Shown here piece after piece: positions 15,574 to 45,957 of a stretch of DNA of 64,000 nucleotides. Source of the DNA: Roseobacter fucihabitans (GTDB taxonomy: Bacteria > Pseudomonadota > Alphaproteobacteria > Rhodobacterales > Rhodobacteraceae); assembly GCF_014337925.2 (NCBI RefSeq), contig NZ_CP143423.1, positions 1,084,501 through 1,148,500 of the forward strand, read 5' to 3'. Below the pieces are notes generated by a model that searched no databases, was not told the DNA's origin, and saw only the letters and a list, made by a program, of their open reading frames with translations. The number at the start of each line of letters is the position of its first letter. Position 1 is the stretch's first letter. Both the position numbers and the translations under genes were made by a program.

Positions 15574-15621
15574 GAGTCGTTTTTTTCTTGTTCGCGCGGG
15601 CCGAACAGAGATAACAATAAG

Positions 15622-15776
15622 ACACGGTGCCATATTCTGTGGCTGAAAAGGGAACCGGGTGTGAGCCCCGGACTGCCCCCGCAACTGTAAGCGGCGAGCG
15701 CAACGGTAAGACCACTGGCCATACGGCTGGGAAGGACCCGCGCGCTGCGACCCGCAAGTCAGGAGACCTGCCGTAC
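15622..15776 (+). promoter_or_regulatory. Cobalamin (AdoCbl) riboswitch 2
   Basis: This is a near-textbook B12 riboswitch. The blocks are ACGGTGCCAT near 15623, CTGAAAAGGGAA near 15642, GCCCCCGCAACTGTAAGCGG near 15675, CCACTGG near 15711, GGGAAGG near 15729 and the B12 box GTCAGGAGACCTGCC near 15758. It sits 65 bases before the CbiM-like gene. It should give that gene its own AdoCbl-dependent control, separate from the upstream operon. Confidence 0.96.
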
Positions 15777-15841
15777 CAAATCATAGCCCGCGATATCGCG
15801 GATCATTCGCTGCCGGAGGGGCAGCTCAGAAAGGAACACAC

Positions 15842-37469: not shown

Positions 37470-37540
37470 AAAAAGGCGACCCCGGGAGGAGGGGCCGCCT
37501 TTCGTGTCCATATCGCATGACCGGGAGGAGGTGGTCGGCG
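37470..37540 (-). ncRNA. CcsR/Cuckoo-type sRNA, copy 3 (last), with terminator
   Basis: Two hairpins with CCTCCTCCC in the loop (minus strand) are centred on 37527 and 37488, 39 bases apart. The first has a stem of ATATCGC and GACC pairing with GGTC and GCGATAT. The second has an 11-bp stem (one mismatch) followed on the minus strand by TTTTT, so it doubles as the rho-independent terminator of the whole array. The motif resembles the anti-Shine-Dalgarno sequence of 16S rRNA. The identity rests on the motif, the paired hairpins and the DUF1127 gene upstream. Confidence 0.8.
37473..37501 (-). terminator. Terminator of the sRNA array
   Basis: On the minus strand, AAGGCGGCCCC pairs with GGGGTCGCCTT around a TCCTCCC loop and is followed by a T run (37470-37474). 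It ends the transcript that begins with the DUF1127 gene. Confidence 0.8.
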
Positions 37541-37579
37541 ATATATATGACTACAGACCCTTCTGGATCTGACGTAATA

Positions 37580-37655
37580 GCGACGGCGGCATCCGGGAGG
37601 AGGATGAATGCCGCAGCCTCGTTACAGACACACCAGGGAGGAGGATTGGTATGCC
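37580..37655 (-). ncRNA. CcsR/Cuckoo-type sRNA, copy 2
   Basis: Two CCTCCTCCC loops lie at 37636-37644 and 37595-37603, 41 bases apart. The hairpin stems are CACACCA with TGGTATG (one mismatch) and GCGGCAT with ATGCCGC, in addition to an inner CC/GG pair. It lies between copies 1 and 3 and is probably processed out of one long transcript. Confidence 0.78.
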
Positions 37656-37721
37656 TGATCTTGTGACCCGCTGGCGAGGCAAACCCCGATGGCAGGCGCG
37701 CACTTGGGCGCTTTATTCCTG

Positions 37722-37796
37722 GCGGCGGTATCGGGGAGGAATGATACCGCCGCTGTGGTATAGGTGTCCTGGGGAGGAGACGGACACCCGATCTTG
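37722..37796 (-). ncRNA. CcsR/Cuckoo-type sRNA, copy 1 (first downstream of the DUF1127 gene)
   Basis: Two hairpins have TCCTCCCC-type loops at 37772-37779 and 37734-37740, 38 bases apart. The stems are GGTGTCC/GGACACC and an 11-bp perfect GCGGCGGTATC/GATACCGCCGC. The stem sequences differ between copies while the loops are kept, which shows selection for structure and loop motif. It starts about 12 bases after the DUF1127 stop codon. Confidence 0.8.
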
Positions 37797-37807
37797 TGCC
37801 AGGCCGT

Positions 37808-38041
37808 TCAGCCTGCGTATTGCTCTGCTGCGTCCAGCGCGATTGCGCGGATCATGGAACGTGACATTCCCAGATCATTCAATTCTCGCTCGCCCAGCTT
37901 GGACAGTTCCGCATAGGTTTCGCGGAATACTCTATTTCGTGCGTAACGCTCGGATGCGGCCTGCAACAGGTTGGCCGCCGTGATAAGCGTCCGTTCGATC
38001 ACGCTCTCGGAGCGCGTATTGATTTGTGTGTAATAGGCCAT
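37808..38041 (-). CDS. ccaF1: DUF1127 small protein heading the sRNA array (CcaF1-like)
   Basis: The 77-residue protein begins MAYYTQINTRSESVIERTL and ends with the DUF1127 motif ELSKLGERELNDLGMSRSMI. In Rhodobacter a DUF1127 protein (CcaF1) is encoded directly upstream of the CcsR sRNAs, is stress-induced and has been linked to RNA binding and sRNA maturation. The arrangement here is the same. The frame is open to 38149, but the ATG at 38041 with GAGG upstream is the likely start. Confidence 0.85.
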   Translation of the reverse strand: MAYYTQINTRSESVIERTLITAANLLQAASERYARNRVFRETYAELSKLGERELNDLGMSRSMIRAIALDAAEQYAG

Positions 38042-38084
38042 GTGCCTGTCCTCGTTATTCCATACGTTCGTTTGTTGTGCTCCA

Positions 38085-38112
38085 TATTTAAGAGATTGCT
38101 GCACGTGCACAA
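38085..38112 (-). promoter_or_regulatory. Candidate promoter of the DUF1127-sRNA transcript
   Basis: On the minus strand, TTGTGC (38112-38107) and TAAATA (38090-38085) are spaced by 16 bases, about 45 bases before the ATG. A heat-shock/stress sigma factor is expected from the Rhodobacter counterpart, but the sequence alone does not decide this. Confidence 0.3.
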
Positions 38113-38265
38113 TACCCAGATTATCAATGCTGCTATGCAGCAATTGCATAGGCGACCTAGCGTAAATTTATGCGTAGTGCTATAGGGTTAAGCATAAAGA
38201 AGCCCTATATAATGTTAGCGGAAACAGGCGCTTAACAAACAAGCGCCCCTGAGGAGAATTTGAGC

Positions 38266-40818: not shown

Positions 40819-41322
40819 GTGAGCCGCAGGTTCAGAGGCGAAAGCCATCACAAGGTCGATGCCAAGGGGCGGGTTTCTATCCCTGCCTCTTTTCGCCGTG
40901 TGATCGAGGCCTCTGACCCGAACTGGACCTCTGGCGAAAACCCGGAACTGGTTATCGTTTACGGCGATCACCGGCGCAATTTTCTGGAATGCTACACGAT
41001 GCAAGCCATTGAAGAGGTGGATGAGCAGATCGACACCTTGCCGCGTGGCTCACGGGAGCGCAAACTGCTGCAAACCCTGTTTCAGGGGCAATCCTTCGCC
41101 ACCTCCATCGACGAAACAGGCCGTCTGGTGCTGCCCGCCAAGCTGCGCCAGAAAATCGGGCTGGCCAATGAAGCCTTTTTCCTCGCGGCAGGGGACACGT
41201 TCCAGATTTGGAACCCTGACACCTATGTAACGGATGAGGTCGCCAAGACCGAAGCCTATCTGGACGACATGCCAGATGATTTTGACCCGCTGGTCTTGTT
41301 GCCTCCCAAGACGAGGGAGTAA
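40819..41322 (+). CDS. mraZ: MraZ, dcw cluster transcription regulator
   Basis: The 167-residue protein starts with GTG and contains two MraZ/AbrB-like repeats: FRGESHHKVDAKGRVSIPASFR near the N-terminus and FATSIDETGRLVLPAKLRQKIG in the middle. It is a ring-forming DNA-binding protein that usually represses its own operon. The likely operator is the 10-bp-period repeat around 40519-40543. It is the first protein gene of the division cluster. Confidence 0.94.
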   Translation: MSRRFRGESHHKVDAKGRVSIPASFRRVIEASDPNWTSGENPELVIVYGDHRRNFLECYTMQAIEEVDEQIDTLPRGSRERKLLQTLFQGQSFATSIDETGRLVLPAKLRQKIGLANEAFFLAAGDTFQIWNPDTYVTDEVAKTEAYLDDMPDDFDPLVLLPPKTRE

Positions 41323-41325
41323 GCC

Positions 41326-42315
41326 ATGGCTGCTGCGGCCCCGTCTGACACGCCCCCCCATATTCCCGTCCTTTTGCCGGCTATTCTGGACGCGGTGGCC
41401 CCGGTGCAAGGCGTGTGGCTGGATGGCACGTTTGGCGCGGGCGGTTATACACGCGGGCTGCTGGAGGCGGGCGCCGAGAGGGTCATTGCCGTGGATCGCG
41501 ACCCGCTGGCCTTTGATCTGGCGGCCGAATGGTCAGGTGGATATGGCGCACGTCTGGTTCAGCAACAGGGTGTTTTTTCCAAGATGGACACTTATGGCAC
41601 CGACCTGGATGGGGTGGTGCTCGATCTTGGGGTCTCCTCCATGCAACTTGATCTGGCCGAGCGCGGGTTTTCCTTCATGCGGGATGGGCCGCTGGACATG
41701 CGCATGAGCCAATCGGGGACTTCTGCGGCGGATATCGTCAACGGCGCCGAAGAAGAAACCCTCGCCAATATCCTGTTCCTTTATGGGGAAGAGCGCGCCA
41801 GCCGCCGTATCGCCAAATCGATCCTGCGCGAACGGGCGCTTGAGCGGATCACGACCACCTTGCGCCTTGCCGGTATCATTGAGGGTTGTTTGCCGCGCAG
41901 CAAACCGGGGCAATCCCACCCTGCCACGCGCAGTTTTCAGGCGCTGCGGATCGCGGTGAACAACGAATATGGTGAGCTTTTTGAAGGACTTATGGCGGCG
42001 GAGCGGGCGTTGAAGCCGGGCGGCCAACTGGCCGTGGTGACGTTCCATTCGGTCGAGGACCGCATGGTCAAACGCTTCCTGACGGCACGGGCTGGGACGG
42101 GCGGTAATGCAAACCGCTACGCCCCTGAGATCGCGCGTGCTGCCCCCGGTTTCACGGTGAAATCACGCAAGGCCATTGCCGCCACAGCGGATGAAATCGC
42201 CGCTAACCCCCGTGCGCGCTCTGCCAGGTTGCGCCTCGCCACGCGCACGGATGCCCCTTTTGAGGCCGTGGATGCCAAGGCCATCGGCATGCCCCTGCTG
42301 AAGGAGACGCTCTAG
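41326..42315 (+). CDS. rsmH: 16S rRNA m4C1402 methyltransferase RsmH
   Basis: The 329-residue protein has [13 protein letters not shown], the SAM motif [33 protein letters not shown] and AIRIAVNNE-type RsmH motifs, with [13 protein letters not shown] near the C-terminus. It methylates N4 of C1402 in the ribosomal P site. It starts three bases after mraZ ends. Confidence 0.95.
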
Positions 42316-44475: not shown

Positions 44476-45957
44476 ATGAGCGGACACGTCAAGACACTTT
44501 CTTCCCTGGGCCTGACCGCGAAGGGCGGGCGCAACCCCGAAATCACCGGTCTGGCCGTGGACAGCCGCGATGTAGAAGACGGTTTTCTGTTCGCGGCCAT
44601 GCCGGGCGTCAAAATACATGGCGGGGAGTTCATCCAATACGCTCTGCGCATGGGGGCGGCGGCGATCCTGACGGACGATGAGGGCGCGAGGATTGCGGCG
44701 GATGTCTTGGCGCAAACGGATGTGGCCGTGGTGATCACATCTGAGCCGCGCGAGGCTCTGGCGCGCACCGCCTCGCTGTGGTTTGAACGCCAACCCCCAG
44801 TTGTGGTGGCCGTGACCGGGACCAATGGCAAAACCTCCGTTGCCACATTTACCCGCCAGATCTGGAGCCTGCTGGGGCATGAAGCCATCAACCTTGGCAC
44901 GACCGGCGTGGAGGGCGCATGGTCCGCCCCCTTGATGCACACCACGCCGGAGCCGATCACATTGCACCGCGCCTTGGCGCAAGCGGCGGAAAACGGCGTG
45001 ACCCATGCGGCGATGGAGGCCTCCAGCCACGGGCTGGATCAGCGCCGCCTGGACGGGGTGACGCTCAAGGCCGCCGGTTTCACCAATTTCACACAGGACC
45101 ATCTGGATTATCACGAGAGTTTCGAGGCCTATTTTGACGCCAAGGCCGGGTTGTTTGCCCGCGTTCTGCCCGAAGAGGCCAAGGCCGTGATCAACATCGA
45201 AGAGGAGCGCGGCGTGGATATGGCGGCCATCGCCAATGCGCGCGGGTGTCCGGTTATTTCGGTTGGGCGCAACATCGGGGATTTCCATATCGGCAAGGTG
45301 CAGGTCGACGCCACGGGGCAAACGGTCCAATTCATGCATCTGGGCAAATCTTATGTGCGCCGGTTGAACCTGATCGGCGATTTTCAGGCGGAAAATGTGA
45401 TGCTGGCGGCGGCTTTGGTGGTGGCTTGCGGGGAAAAACCCAACCATGTGTTTGACACCTTTGAGGATCTGAGCACGGTGCGGGGCCGCATGCAGCTGGC
45501 CGGGACGCGCGACAATGGGGCCACGGTTTTCGTCGATTACGCGCATACACCGGATGCTGTGGCCACAGCGCTCACGGCGTTGCGTCCGCATGTGATGGGG
45601 CGGCTTATTGCCATCGTCGGGGCAGGCGGGGACCGCGATGCGACCAAACGCCCCCTGATGGGGCAGGCGGCGGCGGAAAACGCCGATCTGGTGATTGTGA
45701 GTGATGATAATCCGCGTTCCGAGGACCCCGCAGCCATCCGTGCTGCAGTTCTTTTGGGGGCACCCGAGGCGCAGGAGGTCGGCGATCGGGCTGAGGCGAT
45801 CCTGCGCGGGGTGGACGCTTTGGGGCCGGGCGATGCCTTGCTGATCGCGGGCAAGGGGCATGAGACGGGGCAAACGGTGGGCGATGACATCCTGCCTTTT
45901 GACGATGTCGAACAGGCCAGCGTCGCCGTGGCAGCACTTGATGGGAGGATGGCATGA
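44476..45957 (+). CDS. murE: UDP-MurNAc-L-Ala-D-Glu:meso-DAP ligase MurE
   Basis: The 493-residue ligase shows the P-loop VAVTGTNGKTSVATF, MEASSHGLDQRRL and the DDNPRSEDP motif near residue 410, whose DNPR form marks meso-diaminopimelate specificity. It adds the third residue of the stem peptide in the cytosol. It overlaps murF by four bases. Confidence 0.96.
   Translation: MSGHVKTLSSLGLTAKGGRNPEITGLAVDSRDVEDGFLFAAMPGVKIHGGEFIQYALRMGAAAILTDDEGARIAADVLAQTDVAVVITSEPREALARTASLWFERQPPVVVAVTGTNGKTSVATFTRQIWSLLGHEAINLGTTGVEGAWSAPLMHTTPEPITLHRALAQAAENGVTHAAMEASSHGLDQRRLDGVTLKAAGFTNFTQDHLDYHESFEAYFDAKAGLFARVLPEEAKAVINIEEERGVDMAAIANARGCPVISVGRNIGDFHIGKVQVDATGQTVQFMHLGKSYVRRLNLIGDFQAENVMLAAALVVACGEKPNHVFDTFEDLSTVRGRMQLAGTRDNGATVFVDYAHTPDAVATALTALRPHVMGRLIAIVGAGGDRDATKRPLMGQAAAENADLVIVSDDNPRSEDPAAIRAAVLLGAPEAQEVGDRAEAILRGVDALGPGDALLIAGKGHETGQTVGDDILPFDDVEQASVAVAALDGRMA

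Follow-up and report, generated by a model that had tools for sequence, protein, structure and literature searches.

The closest described relative of the locus treated here is the ccaF1-CcsR1-4 operon of Rhodobacter sphaeroides (RF02791; Cuckoo, CIN1). In this operon, a DUF1127 gene is cotranscribed with the CcsR RNAs, which are located in its 3′ UTR, are cleaved by RNase E, and are followed by a terminator (PMC10253847). Expression is driven by an RpoHI/RpoHII promoter (PMC10253847; PMC8307010), the DUF1127 protein CcaF1 binds RNA and matures the CcsR RNAs (PMC10253847), and the flhR mRNA is a CcsR target (PMC8307010).

Other relatives occur in the Rhizobiales. NfeR1 of Sinorhizobium meliloti (ar14; RF02344) has variable stems and anti-Shine-Dalgarno (anti-SD) loops; these motifs redundantly silence mRNAs by pairing at translation starts, while LsrB activates the RNA at a TGCA-N6-GCAT sequence in its promoter (PMC10746234). 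The NfeR1 literature, as far as it was available, describes a single RNA of three hairpins with its own sigma-70 promoter and additional repression by NtrC, and mentions no preceding DUF1127 gene. AbcR1 and AbcR2 (ar15) likewise carry an anti-SD loop, CUCCUCCC, and silence many mRNAs, although their architecture is different from that of the present locus; AbcR1 is activated by LsrB/VtlR (PMC8844928, PMC7486931). In Brucella, VtlR is described as activating DUF1127 genes as well as the small RNA AbcR2 (PMC12595884). Its targets in Agrobacterium are abcR1, vrsA, and an orthologue of one of the Brucella small-protein genes that VtlR activates. In rhizobia, Agrobacterium, and Brucella alike, stress and host interaction are regulated by LsrB/VtlR.

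The locus compared with these systems is on the minus strand of a 64-kb stretch of the Roseobacter fucihabitans genome, referred to below in its entirety as the window. It includes a ccaF1-like gene at 37808–38041 encoding a DUF1127 protein of 77 aa (PF06568; Pfam E 3.3e-11), and this is the gene behind which an earlier note on this DNA had correctly placed six hairpins. Orthologues of the gene are present in 18 of 19 same-genus genomes, with protein identities of 57–68% in 10 genus-mates and 40–47% in seven others. The hairpin array is on the same strand, 3′ of the gene, and has a terminator at its end. A DUF1127 gene, tandem RNAs on the same strand with CCUCCUCCC loops, and an end terminator are thus features shared with R. 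sphaeroides. The gene order mrp - DUF1127/array - uvrD is also maintained throughout the Rhodobacteraceae, with uvrD seen where the fetched locus reaches far enough.

Searches with the Rfam CcsR1 model (RF02791) gave three matches on the minus strand of the window, at 35.9, 33.2, and 21.7 bits (best E 5.8e-7), and even the best of these is below the gathering score of 65.3 bits. Across the 18 genus genomes, the model matches the orthologous locus every time, with best E values between 1e-6 and 1e-13, yet in none of them does it reach the gathering cut-off, itself the threshold of a narrow model and no biological defining feature. Assignment to the CcsR/Cuckoo locus type, which the earlier note had proposed and which is retained here at sub-gathering scores, is therefore made on anatomy, synteny, and covariation. 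The locus is read, with a probability of roughly 0.85, as a divergent yet syntenic ccaF1-CcsR/Cuckoo (CIN1) operon with three two-hairpin RNAs, and the RNA array itself is a new case within an already known RNA type. The ar14 model (RF02344) matches hairpins 4–6 with a 36-base insert (42 bits, E 3.1e-6); since this score is below gathering (58.8 bits), the locus is not assigned to the ar14/NfeR1 family. The ar15 model has no match in the window genome, and it matched nowhere in that search. No DNA resembling the window array was found on plasmids.

The array is defined by six minus-strand TCCTCCC cores, whose positions are 37778, 37740, 37642, 37601, 37529, and 37490. Their spacings of 38, 98, 41, 72, and 39 bases agree exactly with those given previously and resolve into three units of two hairpins each. 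The nonamer CCTCCTCCC is exact in four of the six loops (37644, 37603, 37531, and 37492) and has no further exact occurrence on either strand of the 64-kb window; the remaining two loops, which make up unit 1, are both shortened, to GTCTCCTCCCCA and ATTCCTCCCC. Expressed as RNA, the CCUCCUCCC loops are exact in units 2 and 3, are complementary to GGGAGGAGG, and include CCUCC, the core of the anti-SD in 16S rRNA.

All of the following features are on the minus strand. Unit 1 comprises hairpin A with loop GTCTCCTCCCCA (37762–37789; identified by motif position, hairpin scan, and folding) and hairpin B with loop ATTCCTCCCC (37722–37753; R1 match at 37722–37790, 48.5 bits). It is followed by a spacer at 37666–37711 in which folding predicts two stem-loops lacking an anti-SD loop. 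Both hairpins of unit 2 have the loop ATCCTCCTCCC; hairpin A (37625–37657) is within the CcsR1 match of 35.9 bits at 37578–37667, and hairpin B (37582–37618) is within an R1 match of 83.9 bits at 37583–37657. The second spacer, at 37554–37571, is predicted to fold into one stem-loop, CAGATCC-AGAA-GGGTCTG, again lacking an anti-SD loop. In unit 3, hairpin A has the loop ACCTCCTCCC and a stem with an internal loop (37508–37545), and 11 of its 12 pairs show two-sided changes across the genus. Hairpin B of this unit (37470–37502; loop TCCTCCC; R1 match at 37473–37544, 29.5 bits) combines a GC stem with a trailing T run, the form of an intrinsic terminator, as had been claimed for the last hairpin.

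A strict hairpin scan detected five of the six hairpins within 350 bases. Among 2000 simulated sequences of the same dinucleotide make-up, 1962 contained no such hairpin and 38 contained one. The sixth, hairpin 5, was outside the strict scan and was recovered by folding, with a small internal loop. Folding of the whole array gives an energy of −148 kcal/mol (z = −7.4), and single units have z values of −3.9 to −5.9.

The earlier note had also held that stems vary but keep pairing around fixed loops, and had named an absence of covariation as grounds for abandoning its reading. Clear covariation was found in an alignment of 13 same-genus three-unit loci, covering six hairpins and 68 pairs. Standard pairs make up 93.7% of the six hairpins, falling to 37–51% when partners are slid by 1–3 columns, and two-sided changes occur in 35 of 68 pairs versus 7–12 in the slid controls. 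The covariation score is 0.381, compared with 0.09–0.15 when slid; derivation of the structure from one of the aligned sequences favours this result somewhat, but the gap to the controls is large. Loops remain constant among orthologues while stems diverge. The paired columns contain 105 G-U cells versus 15 A-C cells, an excess which shows the structured RNA to be that of the minus strand. Protein coding by this strand was considered and rejected, since the structure covaries and the orthologues differ by indels whose lengths are not divisible by three. In the second spacer, each of the 11 hand-listed stems is fully paired despite differing sequences, although their selection from predicted folds makes this pairing supportive rather than independent. 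The spacer stem-loops are an addition of the present analysis.

With respect to unit number, the window locus has three units, compared with four CcsR RNAs in R. sphaeroides (PMC10253847). It also differs in its shortened unit 1 loops and sub-gathering Rfam scores, and it has the spacer stem-loops, a feature set beside the R. sphaeroides locus from the window side only. The three-pair layout, with nearly equal spacing, is found in 14 of 19 same-genus genomes and is the commonest in the genus, so the earlier suggestion that copy number and layout are peculiar to this locus did not hold. Four other genomes have two units, and one further genome has two that look as if units 1 and 2 had fused. 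Across the family, a covariance model trained on units from several genera was run on 296 genomes, nearly all of different genera, and found CcsR-type units in 243, with 1 to 10 matches each. The median is three units per genome among the first 110 listed; such counts are a lower bound, as the same search detected two of the three window units. Larger arrays are known from R. capsulatus and its relatives (7–8 hairpins) and from Maritimibacter alkaliphilus (12). Description of the window locus as expanded, as it had been previously, was therefore dropped: typical family genomes have about three units and some up to 10, and these counts, together with the conserved flanks, mark it as a locus of ordinary size and conserved position. 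The survey provides a first-pass map of unit number variation across one bacterial family.

Two observations on other members of the family may be added. The 12 anti-SD hairpins of M. alkaliphilus (locus L005, 2631–3250) are arranged as six units; near-identity among three of these suggests that tandem duplication was recent. Two genus-mates, G011 and G004 (loci L028 and L029, respectively), each have an additional DUF1127 gene with two CTCCTCCC-type hairpins behind it, 77–79 bases apart, and with upstream sequence that differs from that of the main locus; judged from this arrangement, each is possibly a smaller, additional Cuckoo-like locus.

A single promoter about 45–70 bases upstream of the start codon probably transcribes the DUF1127 gene together with the array as its 3′ UTR, with the transcript ending at the terminator hairpin at 37470–37502. 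By analogy with R. sphaeroides, RNase E, helped by the DUF1127 protein, would then cut the precursor into RNAs of ~80–90 nt, each presenting two CCUCCUCCC or shortened loops complementary to GGGAGGAGG-type Shine-Dalgarno stretches. Going by CcsR, NfeR1, and AbcR, these RNAs would pair at mRNA start regions and lower translation, and precedent makes mRNAs with strong, purine-rich Shine-Dalgarno sites the likely targets. The several copies would supply dose and redundancy rather than separate targets, a purpose suggested by the fixation of loops while stems drift. One candidate target is within the window itself, where GGGAGGA, complementary to the hairpin loops, precedes the start of a murF-like gene near 45954.

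Several identical binding sites on one transcript could also serve as sponges or decoys that titrate SD-rich RNA or the DUF1127 protein instead of silencing mRNAs, and the binding of RNA by CcaF1, which matures the CcsR RNAs in R. sphaeroides (PMC10253847), fits such a role. This is judged quite unlikely, however, given that CcsR RNAs target the flhR mRNA (PMC8307010) and that the anti-SD motifs of NfeR1 silence mRNAs through pairing (PMC10746234).

Further evidence on the function of the RNAs comes from arrays that lack a DUF1127 gene. In one draft genome (G015, C8:172900–175400, locus L034), where assembly error is possible, the promoter element and six paired hairpins are intact while the DUF1127 frame is missing. 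The stretch from promoter to array is much shorter than in relatives, and other DUF1127 genes remain at other sites in this genome. In Sulfitobacter litoralis (locus L073, G314:C33:177800–180200), the promoter element occurs in two tandem copies, the upstream of which precedes a pair of anti-SD hairpins, and no DUF1127 gene lies there. Retention of the array after gene loss in the one case and the second copy in the other argue, at the level of sequence comparison, that the RNAs are under selection in their own right. Both cases also bear on the possibility that the hairpins act mainly in cis, by protecting the 3′ end of the DUF1127 mRNA or by terminating or attenuating it, with the repeated loop as a by-product. 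Their position in the 3′ UTR and the use of the last one as terminator agree with a cis role, but a single hairpin suffices as a terminator, stems change while loops are fixed, copy number ranges from 1 to 10, and hairpins persist in these two genomes without the gene; a mainly cis-acting function is accordingly rated as very improbable. Trans-acting RNAs under selection for themselves are the preferred reading, and G015 offers a natural test of their dependence on the DUF1127 protein.

Two conserved blocks precede the gene, both on the minus strand. The core promoter block, TTGTGCA-N3-GCAGCA...TTAAATAT at 38084–38112, is conserved in genus and family and is of sigma-70 or RpoH type. Upstream of it is the promoter element TGCAATTGCTGCATAGCAGCATTG at 38125–38148, which contains TGCA-N6-GCAT (TGCA-ATTGCT-GCAT in the window; TGCA-N6-GCATRGCWGCATTG in its conserved form) and a motif like that of Brucella VtlR. 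A block around TGCTGCATRGCAGCATTG, with TTGTGCA-N3-GCAGCA after it, is common to all 19 genus loci, two of which show two mismatches. The VtlR motif of Brucella is CAATGCAGCCATGCA (PMC12595884); against its reverse complement, TGCATGGCTGCATTG, the window element has two mismatches in 15 positions, and TGCATGGCAGCATTG, a form common in the family, has one. The window misses another published LsrB site form, GCAT-N3-TG-N3-T, by one base. Among family loci, which were collected without using promoter sequence, TGCA-N6-GCAT is exact in 40 of 54 array promoters versus 0.0007 expected per random 45-mer. Of the 18 genus genomes, 15 have a mismatch-free 15-base box at the DUF1127-array promoter, and the box occurs almost nowhere else there. 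Two extra exact boxes, in two genus-mates, are both inside coding sequence, so no wider regulon is claimed.

Counterparts of this promoter are found in the Rhizobiales. The NfeR1 promoter shares the TGCA-N6-GCAT sequence, which in S. meliloti is bound and used by LsrB, whereas the window site is a predicted one. A 15-base box much like that of the window is present in the promoters of the VtlR-regulated DUF1127 genes of Brucella and of the Agrobacterium orthologue atu1667, but no CcsR-type array behind them is mentioned in the accessible parts of their descriptions. In contrast, the published descriptions of the R. sphaeroides locus that were searched, in the portions available, do not contain an LsrB-type element. 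On these likenesses, the chances are slightly better than even that the element at 38125–38148 is an activation site for an LsrB/VtlR-type LysR regulator encoded elsewhere in the genome, through which that regulator would activate the operon.

A candidate regulator gene is present in the window genome at C1:1858356–1859258. The search that recovered it used as query a trxB-adjacent LysR protein of another alphaproteobacterium, which matches Agrobacterium tumefaciens LsrB (PDB 9HH1) at E 4e-101. The window-genome protein matches the same structure over its full length (E 6.5e-72); the next regulator among the PDB matches has an E of 1.5e-28. Each of the 18 genus genomes has exactly one strong match (E below 1e-88, 49–53% identity), and LsrB-like proteins were detected in 289 of the 296 genomes of the family, including nearly all of those without a detected array. 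LysR match medians were 1e-124.5 in the 20 array-less genomes listed versus 1e-152, a difference that phylogeny alone may explain and that is given no weight here. From these similarity searches, the Rhodobacteraceae protein is likely an LsrB orthologue. The trxB-regulator operon, an arrangement of the Rhizobiales, was not found in the window genome, where the gene after trxB (C1:718154) resembles a cytochrome P450 gene. The cysteines of the window regulator and LsrB do not align, so redox sensing cannot be transferred from one to the other.

The likeness to LsrB/VtlR sites could instead be coincidental: the element might be bound by another regulator, such as OxyR or another LysR protein, or belong to an RpoH promoter. 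This possibility, which competes with the proposal for the promoter but leaves the operon and RNA type untouched, is given somewhat less than an even chance. There are dozens of LysR genes per genome, and the R. sphaeroides ccaF1-CcsR promoter is RpoHI/RpoHII-dependent, with LsrB not named there (PMC10253847). Against coincidence are the position of the element upstream of the core hexamers, the exact TGCA-N6-GCAT in 40 of 54 array promoters, and the presence in the genome of an LsrB-like regulator with 55 of 64 DNA-binding-domain residues identical to those of a trxB-linked relative. LsrB/VtlR-type activation also has wider implications. LsrB has been described as unique to the Rhizobiales on the basis of a small tree (PMC11975290). 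The present comparison leans modestly towards an old circuit of LsrB/VtlR and anti-SD RNAs that would be common to Rhizobiales and Rhodobacteraceae, with LsrB not restricted to the former and the CcsR RNAs among its main outputs. No link between CcsR RNAs and LsrB/VtlR in the Rhodobacteraceae was found in the literature searched, outside which lie the main CcsR papers; an earlier report of such a link may exist. If LsrB drives these RNAs, two literatures would be joined, and a direct prediction for R. sphaeroides follows.

Two further features of the window may be mentioned. At Rfam gathering level, the only matches in the window are two cobalamin riboswitches (RF00174), at 2179–2389 and 15608–15789, scoring 89 and 127 bits. 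Some 2.7 kb from the DUF1127 gene, mraZ- and rsmH-like genes (40819–42315 onward) open a division and cell wall cluster. The R. sphaeroides sRNA UpsM derives from the 5′ UTR of this cluster.
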